From: Chloroflexota bacterium
GTDB taxonomy: Bacteria > Chloroflexota > Limnocylindria > Limnocylindrales > CSP1-4
Length of the DNA: 46,690 nucleotides
Assembly (NCBI GenBank): GCA_003152995.1
Contig: PMBR01000123.1
Coordinates: forward strand, 22,362 to 69,051
Reading direction: 5' to 3'
Shown here: piece after piece, positions 5,332 to 26,774 of the stretch
Position numbering within the stretch: position 1 is the stretch's first letter
Layout of the letters: each line of letters begins with the position of its first letter
The notes under the pieces: generated by a model
Databases searched by the model: none
Told to the model about the DNA's origin: nothing
Seen by the model: only the letters and a program-made list of their open reading frames with translations
Program-made: the position numbers and the translations under genes

Positions 5332-6276
5332 GTGGCCGGCGCCGGCGCGGATCAGACGGATCGGCTGCAGGCAGCGATAGAGGAGTTCCTGATCCACCTC
5401 CGCGTGGAGCGCGGGTTGTCGGATGCGACGCTGACGGCCTATCGGGCGGATCTCCTGGATTTTGCCGCCAGTCGTGGAGCCGGCGCCGGGTGGGACGCGT
5501 CCCCAGACGCCACGGTTCGATATCTGGGAATGCTGGGGTCGCCGGGCCGGGGCCGCCTGACGCCGCTGAGGCCCACGACTCTGCGCCGCAAAGCGGCCTC
5601 GCTGCGTGGCTTCTATCGGTTCTGCTACGCCGAGGGCCGGATAAGCACGGACATCGCCGCCCGGTTCGACCTCCCGCGGCAGCCCAGGCTCCTGCCCGAA
5701 GTCCTCACGGTCGAAGAGGTCGATGGTTTGCTGTCAACGCAAACCGATGCGTCGCCGGCCGGCATCCGCGACCGCGCCCTGCTCGAGCTGCTGTACGCCT
5801 CCGGTCTGCGCATCTCGGAGGCGGTCGGTCTCGATCGTGACGACCTGTCCCTCGAAGAGGGGCTGGTCCGGGTGATCGGCAAGGGCGACCGTGAGCGCCA
5901 GGTGCCGGTCGGGGAAGTGGCGCTCAGCTGGCTCCGGCGGTACATCGAGGAGGTCAGGCCGGCGTGGCTCGCTCTTGCGACGTCGCCGTCGCCCCACGGC
6001 GGGCCGCTATTCCTGTCCGTGCGGGGCGATCGATTCGACCGCCGCCGGGCCTGGGAGATGCTGGTCGCAACGGCCCGTCGGGCCGGCCTTCAGAGTGGGG
6101 TCAGCCCTCATACGCTGCGACATTCGTTCGCGACTCACCTATTGGAGGGAGGCGCCGACCTGCGTATCGTTCAGGAGCTACTCGGGCATGCGAACATCAG
6201 CACGACACAGCTGTACACGCATCTGACCGGCGAACGGATCAAGGACGTCTACGCCCGCTCCCACCCGCGGGCCTGA
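5332..6276 (+). CDS. xerD: Tyrosine recombinase XerC/XerD family
   Basis: This 314-residue recombinase probably resolves chromosome dimers at dif together with a partner. The N-terminal SAM-like core-binding domain covers about residues 8-105. The catalytic set is complete: R160 in GLRISEAVGL, K184 in IGKGDRERQVP, H260 and R263 in HTLRHSFATHL, H286 in LLGHANIS and Y295 in TQLYTHL. The start is GTG 5332, directly after the recN stop at 5330, and gives the usual length; the open frame continues upstream into recN without homology. No dif site was recognised here. XerC or XerD cannot be separated from sequence alone, so the symbol is the likelier of two. It is not next to the tRNA-Arg element and is probably not its integrase. 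Confidence 0.9.
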   Translation: MAGAGADQTDRLQAAIEEFLIHLRVERGLSDATLTAYRADLLDFAASRGAGAGWDASPDATVRYLGMLGSPGRGRLTPLRPTTLRRKAASLRGFYRFCYAEGRISTDIAARFDLPRQPRLLPEVLTVEEVDGLLSTQTDASPAGIRDRALLELLYASGLRISEAVGLDRDDLSLEEGLVRVIGKGDRERQVPVGEVALSWLRRYIEEVRPAWLALATSPSPHGGPLFLSVRGDRFDRRRAWEMLVATARRAGLQSGVSPHTLRHSFATHLLEGGADLRIVQELLGHANISTTQLYTHLTGERIKDVYARSHPRA

Positions 6277-21268: not shown

Positions 21269-21873
21269 GCGTGCTGTCGGACCGCGACATCGCGGCGGCC
21301 CTGCAAACGGGCCAGATCAAGATCGAGCCGTACGATCGAGCGGACCTGCAGCCGTCGTCGGTCGACCTGCACCTCGACCGCACGTTCCGGGTCTTCCGCA
21401 ACAACCGCTATCCGTTCATCGACGTTCGAGTCGCACAACCCGACCTGACGGACCTGTTGTCGGTCGACGACAACGAGGCGTTCATCCTTCACCCGGGCGA
21501 GTTCGTCCTCGGCCAGACCGTCGAATGGGTCGAGTTGCCCGATGACCTGGTGGCTCGGCTGGAGGGCAAGTCGTCGCTGGGCCGGCTCGGTCTGCTCATC
21601 CATTCGACCGCCGGCTATGTCGATCCCGGCTGGAAGGGCAAGCTCACATTGGAGCTGTCGAACGTTGCCAAGCTCCCGATCGCTTTGTATTTCGGGATGA
21701 AGATCGGCCAGATCAGTTTCCTCACGATGTCGAGCCGGGTCGAACGACCGTACGGCTCGGCCGGCCTGGGGTCGAAATACCAGGGTCAGTCGGAGCCGAC
21801 CGCCTCGGCCTTCTTCGAGGACTTCCAAGCAGCTCGCCGGACCCAACAACCAGTGACGGACGATGCCCGATGA
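21265..21873 (+). CDS. dcd: dCTP deaminase
   Basis: This 202-residue enzyme makes dUTP from dCTP (or dUMP in the bifunctional type). The signatures are [35 protein letters not shown] and [16 protein letters not shown], then [14 protein letters not shown]. The two types cannot be separated with certainty here. The start is GTG 21265, overlapping the nrdR stop, and the stop overlaps the next ATG, so nrdR, dcd and the MBL gene form one operon. Confidence 0.94.
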
Positions 21874-22733
21874 CCACGCTCAACGACGCCGTCCACTGGT
21901 CGGCCGAACTGGGCGGGGGGACGCGCGTCGCCCTGATCCAGGCGGGCACCTTCCGCTCGGACGCCGGTGCGCTGTTGGGCGTCGTGCCGCGCATGATGTG
22001 GAACCGGCTCGTGACCGACGAGATCGACGAGCAGCATCGCATCCTGCAGGCGCTCAACTGCCTGCTCATCGAGACGCCCGATGGCCGCGTTCTGGTCGAG
22101 ACCGGGATAGGCGACCGGGTCACCGGCAAGATCAGGTCAATGCGGGCTTACGAGGGGCCGTGGATCGTTCCGGCGCTCGAGAGAGCCGGCTTCAACCCGG
22201 GCACCGTCGATGCCGTGGCCGTGAGCCATCTCCATTTCGACCATGCCGGCGGCCTCCTGCTGGCCGACGGTGAGCTCGCTTTCCCCCGGGCCAGGTTCGT
22301 GGCGCAGCTCGCGGAGTGGAGGGTCGCCATGGGCGACAATCCGCGCATCGTCGCCGCCTACGACCAGCCGGAGCTGAGCCTGGTGCGCGATCTGGGACTG
22401 CGCGGCGTCGTGGATGGCGAGGCCGAGATTCTGCCCGGCGTCACCGTCATCCCGACCGGAGGCCACTCCGCCGGCCATCAGGGCGTCGTGATCCGTGGCC
22501 GCGACACGACCGTCGGCTTCTTCGGCGACCTGTGCATGAGGCCCTGGAGCGCAAACCCGCGCTGGGTCACCGCCTTCGACGACTATCCTCTCGACTCGGT
22601 CCTCGTCAAGGCGTCGCTCTTTGCTCGCGCCGCCGCCGAGGAATGGACCATCGTCCTCTCGCACGAGCCAGTTCATCCGGTAGGCCAGCTCGTTCGCGAT
22701 CGCGATCGCTACCACTTCGAGGCGAGCGTCTGA
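21870..22733 (+). CDS. Metallo-beta-lactamase-fold hydrolase
   Basis: The 287-residue protein has the MBL signature [10 protein letters not shown] (H120, H122, D124, H125), GHSAGHQGV with the next metal His near 208, and a C-terminal LSHEPVHP. The layout resembles the AHL-lactonase/YtnP group and some alkyl-sulfatase-like relatives, with no close family obvious. It starts with a 4-base overlap with dcd. The substrate is not known; nearness to dcd may only reflect operon growth. Confidence 0.85.
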
Positions 22734-22789
22734 GGCTCGTTGACTTGCGAGGCGCAACGCGGCTGCTTCGCCCCTGGTCCTGGACGCGG

Positions 22790-22795
22790 TAACAT
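22790..22795 (+). promoter_or_regulatory. Possible -10 of tRNA-Arg
   Basis: TAACAT ends 8 bases before the tRNA, with TTCGCC 17 bases further upstream as a weak -35. Confidence 0.3.
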
Positions 22796-22803
22796 CCCTG
22801 CGA

Positions 22804-22879
22804 GCCCCCGTAGCTCAGTGGACAGAGCGCCGCCGTCCTAAGGCGGGCGTCGTCGGTTCGAGTCCGGCCGGGGGCGCCA
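22804..22879 (+). tRNA. tRNA-Arg(CCT), CCA encoded
   Basis: The acceptor GCCCCCG (22804-22810) pairs with CGGGGGC (22869-22875), then G and CCA. The D stem is GCTC/GAGC, the anticodon stem CCGCC/GGCGG with the loop GTCCTAA (anticodon CCT), and the T stem GTCGG/CCGGC. From 22861 onward the sequence is the proximal copy of a 28-bp direct repeat, so this tRNA is the probable attachment site of the element downstream. Confidence 0.96.
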
Positions 22880-22908
22880 CACTCGCGCACTCTCGCGCCA
22901 CTTCGGCG
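22861..22908. repeat. Proximal att-like copy (in tRNA-Arg)
   Basis: Bases 22861-22888 equal 25137-25164. Here a 10-base near-duplicate (ACTCTCGCGC, 22889-22898) separates this core from CACTTCGGCG, whereas in the distal copy the two are contiguous. Confidence 0.85.
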
Positions 22909-23046
22909 AAGAAGGGCCGGGAGCGGGAGTCCAGACTGCGCGGTAGACGCGACAGTCGTCGGTGTCCACCTGCTCCACCAGGAGCGCAACAAGCTCCCGC
23001 GGGCCTCCGAACCCCCGACGCCGACGCGTCCACGCTGCGGGTTCGG

Positions 23047-23301
23047 TCAGTGATCCTGGTCGCCGTCCTGGTCCAGATGGGAACGACCTATGGCGGCGCC
23101 TCTCGCTTCGGCCTCCGGGCCGCCTATGATCGCCTCTTTGACTCCGTCCTCTGTCCGCCACAACTGGAAACGCTGGTCGGCGATGCCGGCGCGAAGCAGG
23201 TTACGAAGGTAAGGGATTGCGATGTTGCCGTACTCGACCTGAACTTCGCCGGCCGGGTTCGGGGCCAAGTCCACGAGTGTCTTCAGGCGCTCGTAGATCA
23301 C
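23047..23301 (-). CDS. Small protein coupled to the HNH gene
   Basis: The 84-residue reading frame starts at GTG 23301, which overlaps the stop of the upstream HNH gene as GTGA, and ends near the tRNA. The N-terminal half (MIYERLKTLVDLAPNPAG ... IAIPYLRNLLRAGI) has a balanced amphipathic composition; the C-terminus is acidic (HLDQDGDQDH). No family was recognised. The coupling supports it as real, but it is short and could be a read-through frame. The 167 bases from there to the tRNA hold no other feature that I can see. Confidence 0.5.
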   Translation of the reverse strand: MIYERLKTLVDLAPNPAGEVQVEYGNIAIPYLRNLLRAGIADQRFQLWRTEDGVKEAIIGGPEAEARGAAIGRSHLDQDGDQDH

Positions 23302-24029
23302 ATCGCCCGGTAGGCCAGTGGCAGCATCACCATCCGATCAAGGGCACGCACGACCGCGCCCCGCAAGGACCGGGGCTCGTCTGGGAGTGCCAGGGGCCCG
23401 TAGTCTTCGTAGATGCCCCAGGTTCCCCCGTCCGCTGGGAACACGAACACGTCGGGCAGGATGCGCTCGTCGGGATGCAGGATTTGCGCCCGTACACGGT
23501 CCATCGCGGGCATCAAGACCGGCGCGTACAGGTAGTACTTAACGAGCGTCAGGTAGGCGATCGAGAGGTGGGCGATGGTCAGTCGCCAAGCGGGGTCCTT
23601 GCCGACAGTGATGGTGACCGGCACCTGGAAGGGCAGCGACTTCGCCCAAGTCTGGAGCATCCGCCGGGACGGGCTGTCGTCGAGCACGAAACGCATGTGC
23701 TCAGGCTTGGCTCCGCCCGATACGGCGACCCGGGCCGTAGATCGCCCCACCTTCACCTTGCCGATCCGCTCGCCAGGGCGGAGGCCGAGTTGTCTGTGAT
23801 CGATGAGGAGGGAATCGAACAGCCCGCCGTTGCGCCCGTTGCACGTCTTGCAGAGGAGCACGCAAGAACCGCGCGGTTGTATCCGCCGAGGGACGATATG
23901 TCCGAGGTCGATACGTCCAGCGATGACCTCTTCGCGTCCGCCCTCGGTCAGACATATCGGACAAGCGACTCGACCCCGAACCCCCGTCCAGGCTTCGTAG
24001 TTGCTCGCGAACGGCTTGTATAGCGCCAG
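23298..24029 (-). CDS. HNH-like zinc protein, probably from a CTG start
   Basis: The translated frame contains an HNH/zinc-finger core: CPIC near residue 27, LGHIVPRR, then CKTCNGRNGG. These are two CXXC knuckles with the His and Asn of HNH endonucleases. About 180 residues follow with no known domain. The first canonical start in this frame is GTG 23861, which would remove the first CXXC and the His. The open frame goes back to a stop at 24033-24035, with no ATG, GTG or TTG in between. CTG 24029 gives MALYKPFASNYEAW... (243 residues). Thus it either uses CTG or has lost its start. It is the second-last gene of the minus-strand group. Nuclease activity is inferred. Confidence 0.65.
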   Translation of the reverse strand: MALYKPFASNYEAWTGVRGRVACPICLTEGGREEVIAGRIDLGHIVPRRIQPRGSCVLLCKTCNGRNGGLFDSLLIDHRQLGLRPGERIGKVKVGRSTARVAVSGGAKPEHMRFVLDDSPSRRMLQTWAKSLPFQVPVTITVGKDPAWRLTIAHLSIAYLTLVKYYLYAPVLMPAMDRVRAQILHPDERILPDVFVFPADGGTWGIYEDYGPLALPDEPRSLRGAVVRALDRMVMLPLAYRAM

Positions 24030-24132
24030 CCGCTACTCTATCCCTCTGCTCATGGCCGTAGTCTACGGGTGCGAGCCCTGGTGTCCCTCGCGAGAAGTCG
24101 GGCTCATGACGGCCATCCGGCCAACGAGGCGC

Positions 24133-24525
24133 CTAAGCGGAGCCCGGAACCAGCTCGAGTGCGACCTCATCCCGCTTCCTGTCCACCAGGGGGCCTAGCT
24201 CCGCGAGGAATGCGTCGAGTAGCGACGGCTCCGTTCTGACGTGGATGAGCGCTTCGTCCGCGGCTTCCTTCCGTGCGAAGCGGTCGTAGTCCGTCTGCAG
24301 CCGGCAAGTCAAATAGATCCGCCCATCGAACCAATGAAAACGCACGTGGACGGCGCCGTTCGCATACTCCGGGCCAAACTCCCCGAACCTCAGGTCGCAA
24401 AGACCTTGAGACTTGGCGAAGGACCGGAGATCCTTGACCGCGGTCTTCAGGTCCTCGCGCCCGACGTAGGAGGTTACGGCGAAGCCGGTGTCGGGCCCCT
24501 CGACGGCGACTCGCAGTTCGTCCAT
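24133..24525 (-). CDS. Conserved-looking hypothetical protein in the tRNA-Arg element
   Basis: The 130-residue protein starts at ATG 24525 and contains MDELRVAVEGPDTGF, then FGEFGPEYANGAVHVRFHW and YLTCRLQTDYDRFARKEAAD, ending with a Leu/Glu-rich helix. No Cys pairs or membrane helix are seen. It looks like a soluble alpha/beta protein of about 15 kDa; I do not recognise the family. The frame continues upstream to 24654 with a poor Arg-rich stretch, so the ATG is preferred. 103 bases separate it from the HNH gene. Confidence 0.65.
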   Translation of the reverse strand: MDELRVAVEGPDTGFAVTSYVGREDLKTAVKDLRSFAKSQGLCDLRFGEFGPEYANGAVHVRFHWFDGRIYLTCRLQTDYDRFARKEAADEALIHVRTEPSLLDAFLAELGPLVDRKRDEVALELVPGSA

Positions 24526-24687
24526 GTCGTCATCGCCCCAGACTCTAGAGATGCGTAGGGCTGTGGATGGTTTTCGAAACACGCGGGTTTCCTCCAGCCG
24601 ACGAGACCGGCGAGCCCCTCGCCCACGCGAGCGGCCTAGTGTAGCCCGCGCCATGGTCGAAGGAAGCGCACCGCGAACAAGCCCCCG

Positions 24688-25005
24688 TCAGTTGCCGAAG
24701 AACACCACGAAGAACTCCCGTCGGCTGGCACGCCCTTCGGTGATGTACTCGGCAAGGTCTTGGAGGTTGGCCCGCACACGCTCGCTCGTGTGCGGCCGAC
24801 GAGCGATGGCGCTCATTTCCTCCAACAGCCGGAGCGACTGTTCCCCGTTGAACACTGTGTCGGTGACGGGGGAGATGGAACTCACCAGGCTCATGGCGGG
24901 TTCCCGCGAGAACACCTGAAAGGACTCGTCCTGCAGGACAGCGACCTTCGTGTCTGACGGCCTCGGCGTCAGAATCCGCTCAACGACCAAGACGCCGTAG
25001 CTCAA
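24688..25005 (-). CDS. Small hypothetical protein, first gene of the minus-strand group
   Basis: The 105-residue protein starts at TTG 25005 and has an excellent AAGGAGG 8 bases before it; the nearby ATG at about 25012 leads only to a short frame. It reads MSYGVLVVERILTPRP, then DTVFNGEQSLRLLEEMSA and RVRANLQDLAEYI, and ends FFVVFFGN. The middle looks helical. No known domain is recognised. The strong ribosome site and position suggest it is the best expressed of the four genes. Confidence 0.7.
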   Translation of the reverse strand: MSYGVLVVERILTPRPSDTKVAVLQDESFQVFSREPAMSLVSSISPVTDTVFNGEQSLRLLEEMSAIARRPHTSERVRANLQDLAEYITEGRASRREFFVVFFGN

Positions 25006-25136
25006 TCTGCATGCCTCCTTGCGCTGACCGTCATTCTAAGCAGTGCGCTCGCCCGCCCGGTCGGCCGACAGCGCTCGCTCAACTCGCGGCGGCGTAGTAT
25101 TCGAGGGAGTCGTCCTGCGCCGGTAACGCGCCCCCA

Positions 25137-25174
25137 AGTCCGGCCGGGGGCGCCACACTCGCGCCACTTCGGCG
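25137..25174. repeat. Distal att-like copy of the tRNA-Arg 3' end
   Basis: Bases 25137-25164 are identical to 22861-22888, including the CCA end, and continue with CACTTCGGCG. The base before the repeat differs (A here, G in the tRNA), so the exact match begins in the T-arm. Confidence 0.85.
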
Positions 25175-25182
25175 GCAGAGTT

Positions 25183-25198
25183 TGTCGGGTGCCCGACA
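25183..25198. other. 16-base palindrome next to the distal att copy
   Basis: TGTCGGGTGCCCGACA has 7-base arms TGTCGGG and CCCGACA around TG. It begins 9 bases after the distal repeat. It may be a recombinase arm or hairpin, or unrelated. Confidence 0.4.
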
Positions 25199-25355
25199 CA
25201 GGTCCGAGGGGCGACAGCCGATACTTGTCGACGGGCCGGACGCCGCTGGATCCAGCGGAGGAGGGGAGGGTCGCCGTGGGTGGCACGAGGTTGCCGGCGA
25301 CTCTGGCCTATACCCTGACCGTGGCCGCGGATCCAGCCGGAAGATAGTGTCGCCG

Positions 25356-26078
25356 ATGATGATTGTGTTCCTGTTGCTTCTTCCCGGCGTCGTTTGTCTT
25401 GTCGCGGCGTGGCTGATGTCTCGCGGATCGGGCGCCACCGACGCAGCGGGCAATGGGAAAGAATGGTCGATCTACGGCTGGCGTATGCCTCCGGCGGCCC
25501 GGCGACTCCTGGCCGAGCCGGCCGGCCCGACTGCCCTCGCGGTTCTATTCGCCGTGGTGTCGCTGCCGATAGTGGCTCTCTCGCTGGACGGGGTCTATGC
25601 GCCTGCCGGCGTCTATCTGGGCCAGGAACAAGTCGTTCGGCTGCCGCTCACAGACCTCGGGCGCTGGACTGCCGCTGCCGGAGGGGTGTTGGCTGCAGCT
25701 GTGTTCTCTGGAACGATCGGCGGCCTGGTCGTGCGACGCCACGCAAAGTTGGGTGGGCTGCTTACTCTGCTTCTGGCCTGGCAAGTGGGTATTGCCACGC
25801 TGCCGCTGGCGCCTGCGTTGCTGCACCAGGACGTTGGCTTCGTCTACTTCTGCCTGGACGGCTGCAGCGCGGCGATCGAATCCAGCGACCCCGCGACCGC
25901 ACTGCAGGCCGCTGTGACGCCGTGGGCCGTGCAGCTGTCTCCGCTGTTTGCGCCTGTGCCGTTCGTGACTCTCGCGGTCGGAGTGATCGCTTGGACCCGA
26001 CTCCTGCGGCGATTCTCCGTGAACCGGGAGTCGAGAACGCCCACCGGTCGCGAGGCGGCAAGCCGTGAACGGGCGTAG
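25356..26078 (+). CDS. Multi-pass membrane protein of unknown function
   Basis: The 240-residue protein has five likely membrane helices: MMIVFLLLLPGVVCLVAAWLM at the start, then at about residues 55-75, 98-120, 125-145 and 198-220. A loop with FCLDGCSAAIESS between helices 4 and 5 has two close cysteines that might form a disulfide. The start is ATG 25356, with TAGTGT ending 5 bases before it, suggesting a leaderless start; the longer upstream frame overlaps the att region and is unlikely. No family was recognised. It is followed after 33 bases by another membrane protein. Confidence 0.65.
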   Translation: MMIVFLLLLPGVVCLVAAWLMSRGSGATDAAGNGKEWSIYGWRMPPAARRLLAEPAGPTALAVLFAVVSLPIVALSLDGVYAPAGVYLGQEQVVRLPLTDLGRWTAAAGGVLAAAVFSGTIGGLVVRRHAKLGGLLTLLLAWQVGIATLPLAPALLHQDVGFVYFCLDGCSAAIESSDPATALQAAVTPWAVQLSPLFAPVPFVTLAVGVIAWTRLLRRFSVNRESRTPTGREAASRERA

Positions 26079-26111
26079 CCTGTCTCCGCTCAAGCCGTCA
26101 GGAGGACGCCC

Positions 26112-26774
26112 ATGCGCTTTCGCAGCGCCGCGATCACCGTCGTCGTCTTTGCGGTCGCCATGGCGTACCTGGAATCCGCGGTCGTGGTGTATCTGCAGCG
26201 GGCCCTGGCCATCACGCCAGATCAGCTGTTCCCGCTCCGCGGCCCGGACGTGGCCGGGAATCTCGTGGCGATAGAGGTCGGCCGCGAGTTCGCTACCCTC
26301 GTGATGCTGGCGGGGATCGGCTGCCTGGCGGGTCGGACCTGGCTCGGGCGGCTGGCGTGGGTCGCGGTTGCGTTCGGCGTCTGGGACATCTTCTACTACG
26401 TGTGGCTCTGGGTCTTCATCGGCTGGCCCGGTTCGCCGGTCGCCTGGGACGTGCTGTTCCTCATTCCGGTGCCGTGGGTGGGGCCGGTCTGGGCTCCGGC
26501 CACCGTGAGTGCAGCGCTGGTCGGATTTGGATTTGCGGCAGCCCGCAGCATCGAGTCCGGAGCGGCGCTTCGCGCTGGAGTGCGTGAAGTCGGATTGGCC
26601 GGCGCCGGCGGTCTGCTCGTCGTGATGAGTTTCGTCGTCGACGCGCCGCGCATCATGGCCGGGGGCCTGCCGGGCTGGTTCCCCTGGCCCCTGTTCGCGG
26701 CCGGCATGGCTCTGGCAGCGTGCGGTGCCCTCCTGACTCTGCGTCGCGGCGCGCTGGAGAACACGGCGGCTTGA
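26112..26774 (+). CDS. Seven-helix-like membrane protein of unknown function
   Basis: The 220-residue hydrophobic protein begins MRFRSAAITVVVFAVAMAYL and carries about seven membrane helices, with an ESAVVVYL motif in the first and DIFYYVWLW in the third. AGGAGG lies 8 bases before ATG 26112. A family of such proteins is common in soil bacteria, but I know no function. It lies in an apparent unit with the previous gene. Confidence 0.7.
   Translation: MRFRSAAITVVVFAVAMAYLESAVVVYLQRALAITPDQLFPLRGPDVAGNLVAIEVGREFATLVMLAGIGCLAGRTWLGRLAWVAVAFGVWDIFYYVWLWVFIGWPGSPVAWDVLFLIPVPWVGPVWAPATVSAALVGFGFAAARSIESGAALRAGVREVGLAGAGGLLVVMSFVVDAPRIMAGGLPGWFPWPLFAAGMALAACGALLTLRRGALENTAA

Follow-up and report, generated by a model that had tools for sequence, protein, structure and literature searches.

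We analyzed a stretch of 46,690 nucleotides (the window, to which all positions refer) from a Chloroflexota bacterium (GenBank assembly GCA_003152995.1, contig PMBR01000123.1), in which positions 22861-25164, behind a tRNA-Arg(CCT) gene, very probably represent an integrated, non-autonomous island derived from islands carrying a large serine recombinase (LSR). Our confidence in the origin from an LSR island is high; in present mobility it is lower. The best reading of the unit is a derivative resembling a cis-mobilizable element (CIME), and the family has many units of this kind at tRNA-Arg(CCT). The island has no functional integrase of its own; what it retains is a frame-broken 3' remnant of an LSR gene. 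In relatives, an LSR gene lies beside tRNA-Arg(CCT) or beside a copy of the attachment (att) site and reads into it, the att core falling within the LSR frame. The locus contains the following features:

21870-22733, plus strand: metallo-beta-lactamase-fold gene, native left flank, syntenic in relatives (Pfam PF00753, E=1.7e-18)
22804-22879, plus strand: tRNA-Arg(CCT), the target gene, intact (ARAGORN)
22861-22888, plus strand: proximal copy of the 28-bp repeat, attL core; similarity extends to 22908
22878-22922, minus strand: core-proximal LSR remnant sharing the frame of the distal tail (frame assigned by eye), with a frame break before the next part
22913-22999, minus strand: 3'-terminal LSR gene remnant reading toward the tRNA (LSR C-terminus profile)
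25079-25136, minus strand: distal tail, the last LSR codons (...DDSLEYYAAAS-stop, from the minus-strand codon reading), inner arm of attR
25137-25164, plus strand: distal copy of the 28-bp repeat, attR core; similarity extends to 25174
25165-26111, plus strand: extra DNA without counterpart in empty relatives, including a hydrophobic-protein gene (25356-26078)
26112-26774, plus strand: native right flank gene, adjoining the tRNA in empty relatives (locus comparison)

Insertion at the 3' end of tRNA-Arg(CCT)

The original prediction described an exact 28-bp direct repeat joining the 3' end of tRNA-Arg with a second copy 2.28 kb away, and this held: 22861-22888 and 25137-25164 are identical over all 28 nt at a spacing of 2276, and the proximal copy comprises the last 19 nt of the tRNA gene and 9 nt beyond it. 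The repeat is beyond chance: over 500 dinucleotide shuffles of 22501-25500, the longest direct repeat averaged 11.6 nt and never exceeded 16. Past the 28 nt, another 21 nt are 95% identical (22888-22908 and 25154-25174), with a 10-nt offset that looks like a tandem duplication in the proximal copy. An intact tRNA gene thus stands at one end of the island and a displaced copy of the tRNA 3' end at the other; the G+C content is 64.8% between the repeats, compared with 67.3% in the 10 kb on either side.

The window's assembly is ~73% complete, and its relatives comprise 20 other genomes in the genus and 106 others in the family (G-numbers label the genomes compared, and L-numbers the locus stretches taken from genomes). 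The locus was taken from 20 genomes, of which 19 belong to the genus and one to another. At 9 of the 19 same-genus loci (G002, G003, G006, G008, G009, G011, G014, G015, and G019), which are short and without the repeat, only ~38-69 nt separate the tRNA from the homologue of the 26112 gene. The repeat therefore marks an integrated element: the predicted layout of a tRNA-integrated island is borne out, and the single-copy empty sites proposed as a check in relatives lacking the genes do exist. The spacing after the tRNA is ~130-247 nt in G001, G007 (which contains Ns), and G010, and 524-580 nt in G004, G005, G012, and G020, apparently with one small gene in common. G016 has its own unit after the tRNA, its right junction aligning to the G012 site in 43 of 54 columns; G013 and G017 reach contig ends, and G018 gave no match to the locus other than the tRNA sequence.

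The distal copy had been taken as the end of the island. Relative to the empty relatives, inserted DNA continues beyond it to 26111, and the 3.2 kb after the window's tRNA consists of the 2.28-kb unit and 0.95 kb with the hydrophobic-protein gene. Because its first ~10 nt resemble the LSR-side arm, 25165-26111 is perhaps a second, truncated unit. The region upstream of the tRNA is variable as well, with ~0.9-2 kb extra between the metallo-hydrolase gene and tRNA-Arg in G005, G011, G013, and G035 (L026, L037, L038, and L040). In G017 (contig C88; L039, 1973-2047), the unit is followed at the contig end by another, degenerate copy of tRNA-Arg, which is itself preceded by a similar stretch.

Large serine recombinase genes at the core

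A profile of LSR C-termini, built from 13 sequences with the window left out of training, matched 22913-22999 on the minus strand (E=2.2e-6), the next best match in the window having an E-value of 0.45. The frame nearest the core, shared with the distal tail APPAGLGGALPAQDDSLEYYAAAS-stop, reads SRPFFAEVARECASV-APPAGL and is broken before the profile match. In a tblastn search, residues 476-524 of the LSR of G158 matched 22996-22847 (E=2e-4), aided by the common tRNA antisense. An LSR C-terminus lies 18-47 nt from the core in 14 rows (12 distinct places) at tRNA-Arg or att cores; these places are all in the training set of the profile save the window and G109, a twin of G085. At the other end of the island, the distal DNA encodes a minus-strand LSR C-terminus, D-x-L-x-[W/Y]-Y-A. 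The original prediction had found no integrase, which stands as far as a functional one is concerned; since an LSR gene end is kept against the tRNA and tail codons at the far end, the island is not integrase-free by origin. The tyrosine recombinase expected there did not materialize: the remnant belongs to the serine family, and none of the nine PF00589 matches in the window's genome lies beside tRNA-Arg(CCT). The best of these, at 5701-6228 of the window (E=4e-47, 349-codon frame), is far from the tRNA and is perhaps XerC/D.

Longer LSR genes were found at the same position in relatives. In G101, a minus-strand gene that abuts the tRNA and reads into it encodes Recombinase and zinc-ribbon domains (PF07508, PF13408); its N-terminus is missing and its frame is broken. 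With this LSR as query, 11 of 107 family genomes gave matches at E<=1e-10; such relatives lie at the middle att of G125 (one frame break) and in G064, G062, and G083, and adjoin tRNA-Glu in G094 and G123. The LSR of G094 has Resolvase, Recombinase, and zinc-ribbon domains (PF00239, PF07508, PF13408), the domain evidence thus coming from this protein and the G101 fragment, not from the window's own remnant. The G094 query matched 10 of 400 genomes of a phylum sample at E<=1e-25. At five of 11 LSR loci from this search that were scanned for tRNAs, a tRNA lies within ~50 nt on the 3' side of the recombinase match (Arg(CCT) in G158, Glu in G080 and G203, Asp in G249, His in G231); in G346 a tRNA-Asp is ~420 nt off, and the other five loci are without a tRNA. 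G158, from another family of the same class, has an uninterrupted LSR gene of ~525 codons that overlaps tRNA-Arg(CCT). The LSR relatives beside tRNA-Glu, -His, and -Asp in other Chloroflexota read toward the tRNA 3' end (L143, L144, L182, L184, L185, L186; L183 at ~420 nt). The LSRs of G115, G083, and G064 have lost internal parts and kept the C-terminal end, a pattern consistent with att arms that are used or selected for; internal deletions occurring by chance could give the same result. A viral origin of the LSR clade was considered, and no relative was confirmed in viral contigs. Phage and plasmid records gave 125 and 15 matches, respectively, all below 60% identity and none covering more than 80% of the query; among the matches listed (8 phage, 8 plasmid), identity was 26-30% over 55-68% of the query. 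On contig C68 of G000, a tyrosine recombinase (325-codon frame) is followed 3-4 kb on by a large serine recombinase, twice (11316/15115; 46258/49600), and further tyrosine recombinases of like score and frame occur on other contigs (C103:35660, C48:83108); these pairs are perhaps a multi-copy mobile element.

Because the LSR 3' end reads into the tRNA and the distal tail is an LSR C-terminus, the att core lies inside the integrase frame. At tandem junctions, the LSR frame on the minus strand passes through the core into the tail of the next unit without a stop, as in G125 (...ARPFFAAAESLLL-APPDGLAGSRSKACDPLAWYAAFDP-stop) and G064 (...ARPFFTADDYTV-APPDGRRGTRGKAADALGWYAAEP...). At the tRNA, it ends in tRNA-antisense codons, as in G062 (...LLL-APPDGFEPPTHALGRHRSIH-stop). 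The pattern D/N-x-L/P-x-W/Y-Y fits 21 of 23 tails, the second site of G109 having LDWYA and G083 LDYYLE. Because variation in the tail is largely synonymous (Leu CTC/CTT/CTG/CTA; Tyr TAC/TAT; Asp GAC/GAT), with mean pairwise differences of 1.68, 2.45, and 3.76 at codon positions 1, 2, and 3 among 20 distinct sequences, the tail appears to have been under protein-level constraint as a recombinase end. A reading of the GCGTAGTAT / GCGTACCA motif as a promoter was dropped on the minus-strand codon pattern; promoter function may still exist.

We propose from these frames that the C-terminus of the LSR is exchanged upon integration. In the circular form, the LSR would end in its native D-x-L-x-[W/Y]-Y-A tail; recombination at the tRNA 3' end would swap this tail for tRNA-antisense codons and would leave the native tail at the far end of the integrated unit. 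In the window, the LSR is lost save for its last ~45 codons, now frame-broken, with both att arms kept. For movement, a unit of this type would depend on an LSR provided in trans or by a tandem neighbour.

Units and cargo across the family

Among the 21 genus genomes, a query of 25020-25180 gave matches longer than the tRNA end only in G016 and G017 besides the window. Both are behind the same tRNA, each behind a different cargo gene, and the similarity among window, G016, and G017 covers ~60 nt inside the element, next to the core. We searched the family for the core with its preceding CCC, using the reversed pattern, which gave one match, as control. The pattern occurred at 23 sites in 20 of 107 family genomes, and 21 of these sites carry the tail GCGTA(C/G)(C/T)A... 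or a close form (18 of 107 genomes, nine genera). The sites of G024 and G066 are without the tail and without tRNA-Arg(CCT) in the stretches scanned, and were not counted as members. When longer stretches were scanned, 12 of 21 sequences, that of the window among them, had a same-strand tRNA-Arg(CCT) upstream. As for the other nine, five start less than 500 nt from the site (two of G064, G085, G087, G023); the G115 sequence opens within the tRNA 3' end, G125b is the continuation of the G125a contig, and the last two are G024 and G066, which are without the tail. With one mismatch allowed, the pattern was found in 17 of 177 class genomes, all within the window's family, and an exact scan of 84,980 species genomes returned 11 stretches, ten of them from Chloroflexi metagenome-assembled genomes (one stretch, L162, being the tail-less G024 site) and one from Lysobacter. 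The Lysobacter match, with no tRNA within its 8 kb, was taken as chance. The group with core and tail is an uncultured Chloroflexota family.

Measured from core to core, 19 units span 0.56-13.1 kb, the 2,276 nt of the window lying near the middle, and cargo differs among units sharing core and tail. The G067 unit carries a HepT-like gene (Pfam) with an adjacent gene that is nucleotidyltransferase antitoxin-like by eye; the G069 and G125 units encode a protein of 1000-1200 aa, and the G128 unit a protein that is hydrolase-like by eye. A comparison of G069 with G125 gave no proof of transfer between genera, the common unit (76-83%) being about as similar as the flanks (mostly 73-79%). The units of G069 and G113, which are without an LSR remnant, have in common another inner arm after tRNA-Arg, GTTCCyGCTCAACCmGTGAGCAT (L115, L121; L114 partly), perhaps a second recognition type.

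Sites occur in tandem in G064, G109, and G125. The contigs of G085 and G109 match in stretches of 441 bp (99.5% identity) and 4,224 bp (97.9%). Exactly at the core, G109 holds one additional unit of 1,275 nt, with a gene that is lipoprotein-like by eye and no recombinase gene. This difference is the clearest sign, suggestive in strength, of precise gain or loss of a unit, in either direction. The near-identity of the two contigs, though filed under different genera (L116, L120), may reflect recent transfer or a binning error.

The original prediction placed four genes between the repeats, against the local strand. The four open reading frames (ORFs) are indeed on the minus strand, the one listed as 187 aa being open for 244 codons from 24032:

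23047-23301, minus strand: cargo ORF of 84 aa, no Pfam match (ORF list)
23298-24032, minus strand: cargo ORF open for 244 codons, no Pfam, PADLOC, or PHROGs match, with the motif CPIC...GHIVPR...LCKTCNGRN
24133-24654, minus strand: cargo ORF of 173 aa, start may be 24522, no family assigned
24688-25005, minus strand: cargo ORF of 105 aa, weak LmuB-like match (PADLOC, E=7.6e-4)

The cargo gave no Pfam match above the cut-off and nothing under E=0.4 in PHROGs, leaving the weak LmuB match of the 105-aa protein as the single PADLOC match; it is thus without a convincing known family, in line with the earlier statement that it is not a known defence or resistance module. The Pfam, PADLOC, and PHROGs scans, which included no search aimed at conjugation genes, revealed no recombinase or transfer gene in it. 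From its motif, by eye alone, the 244-codon protein looks HNH-like, and it has no match among 72,556 plasmid or 50,697 phage records. The search of the 106 other family genomes took in two of the four cargo proteins and found one weak relative of the 244-codon protein (G034, 30%) and one relative of the 105-aa protein (G013, 55%), on a contig other than that of the G013 tRNA-Arg locus. The same genes at repeat-less sites in relatives had been named as evidence that would speak against an island; for the two proteins searched, neither was found at the site in other family genomes.

Alternative explanations, mobility, and known systems

Several observations weigh against an origin from LSR islands of the kind proposed. 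The remnant in the window is short and its frame is broken. The window's own 73%-complete assembly, whose two PF07508 matches were not matched by the LSR clade queries, yielded no LSR of this clade, and among the 107 family genomes searched none had an uninterrupted LSR at tRNA-Arg(CCT). The profile found no LSR remnant in G016, G017, G067, G069, and G113, among other units, so origin by LSR loss is unsupported for such units. The attR of G158 and of the relatives at tRNA-Glu, -Asp, and -His was not found on the stretches taken. The circular form is deduced from sequence, none having been observed, and the simplest picture of the frames is not followed by G101, G130, and one G064 junction, where the remnant, decayed in all three, is in a frame other than that of the tail.

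We give even chances to a frozen relic, in which integration by a full LSR was followed by decay through internal deletion and no enzyme recognises the island now; it would share the origin proposed here without present mobility. The frame-broken remnant, the internally deleted LSRs of G115, G083, and G064, and the absence of a clade LSR from the assembly favor such a relic, whereas the preservation of both arms and the core, the distal tail that is open to its stop, and the clean difference of a recombinase-less unit between G085 and G109 argue against it. Gain and loss of units could also come about without an LSR, through slippage or homologous recombination between short direct repeats. 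The cores are direct repeats of 18-28 nt, and G085 could derive from a G109-like array; this process accounts for loss but not for the way in which nine genera acquired differing cargo with a common tail, and we regard it as unlikely. Islands at tRNA 3' ends, the classical target of tyrosine integrases in the accessible text of the Islander study (PMC4383910), might instead have lost a tyrosine integrase; the remnants at the core are those of an LSR and the PF00589 matches of the window's genome lie elsewhere, making this very improbable here. Slightly less credible still than a lost tyrosine integrase is a distal copy arising as a decayed duplicate of the tRNA gene. A degenerate tRNA-Arg copy does exist downstream in G017, and a short GCGCCCCC stretch before the distal copy resembles the tRNA acceptor strand; yet the tails, by eye, are unlike the sequence upstream of the tRNA, they are conserved as codons over nine genera, and this core directly adjoins LSR genes. 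What stands before the distal copy is a run of recombinase tail codons and no tRNA 5' sequence, so that a tRNA remnant, which had been named as a refuting outcome, was not what we found.

An origin from LSR islands leaves room for a more dynamic, cassette-like serine-recombinase system, which we put forward tentatively as a rather unlikely extension. Enzyme-less units of 0.6-1.3 kb would move in and out of an array behind tRNA-Arg(CCT), recombining at the end of the recombinase gene, and the C-terminal swap could switch between an integrating and a resident enzyme; a tandem neighbour would restore the native LSR tail.

The closest known elements are the ssrA islands of Dehalococcoides, as far as the available text of McMurdie et al. 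(2011, PMC3146451) describes them. There, a serine recombinase lies on the reverse strand next to attL, a short direct repeat of the RNA gene 3' end with a conserved motif just upstream is present, islands occur in tandem, and 15 of 31 are without the integration module and were suggested to be cis-mobilizable. The units described here are alike in all of these respects and in phylum, the recombinase at attL on the reverse strand being a remnant in the window and a longer gene in relatives. They differ in target, which is tRNA-Arg(CCT) rather than the tmRNA gene (ssrA), and are mostly smaller; the Dehalococcoides islands, in the same text, have DsiB with DsiA and further module genes, none of which was seen here, where no search by name was made. 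Because the target differs, the window unit is not a Dehalococcoides-type ssrA island; by analogy, it would work like a module-less one at another RNA gene. CIMEs, as discussed in the accessible part of the same source (PMC3146451), are alike in having att-flanked cargo without recombinase or transfer genes and in tandem accretion at a common site; they are discussed there with partners among integrative and conjugative or mobilizable elements (ICE/IME), and the window unit is likened to them on its gene content.

In the core and tail units, the predicted change of the protein end concerns the recombinase itself, a serine one. In mycobacteriophages with an integration-dependent C-terminal change, attP lies inside the repressor gene and the integrase is a tyrosine one. 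These systems are alike in having the att core within a coding frame and in a change of a protein C-terminus by integration, but there it is the repressor that changes. Integron gene cassettes are similar in being small units of few genes with a common recombination site, arrayed at one locus; here, the recombinase is of the serine type, the site consists of recombinase codons and the tRNA 3' end, and no IntI was seen, the search for IntI-type recombinases (PF00589 beside tRNA-Arg(CCT)) covering the window's genome only.

In the literature covered, from which subscription papers were mostly absent so that novelty is unproven, we found no description of a serine integrase gene at a tRNA that contains the att core. 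Integration at tRNA and tmRNA genes is tied to tyrosine integrases in the available text of the Islander study (PMC4383910), and 16 tyrosine systems of Mycobacterium abscessus use tRNA or tmRNA sites in that of a second study (PMC10654092); against this background, a serine clade at tRNAs is less usual. The findings point to a Chloroflexota LSR clade at tRNA 3' ends (Arg here, and Glu, Asp, or His for relatives), sites that are usually associated with tyrosine integrases. The core together with the D-x-L-x-[W/Y]-Y-A tail provides a sequence tag for integrase-less islands that searches for integrase genes miss, and makes it testable whether integration alters the integrase via its C-terminus.

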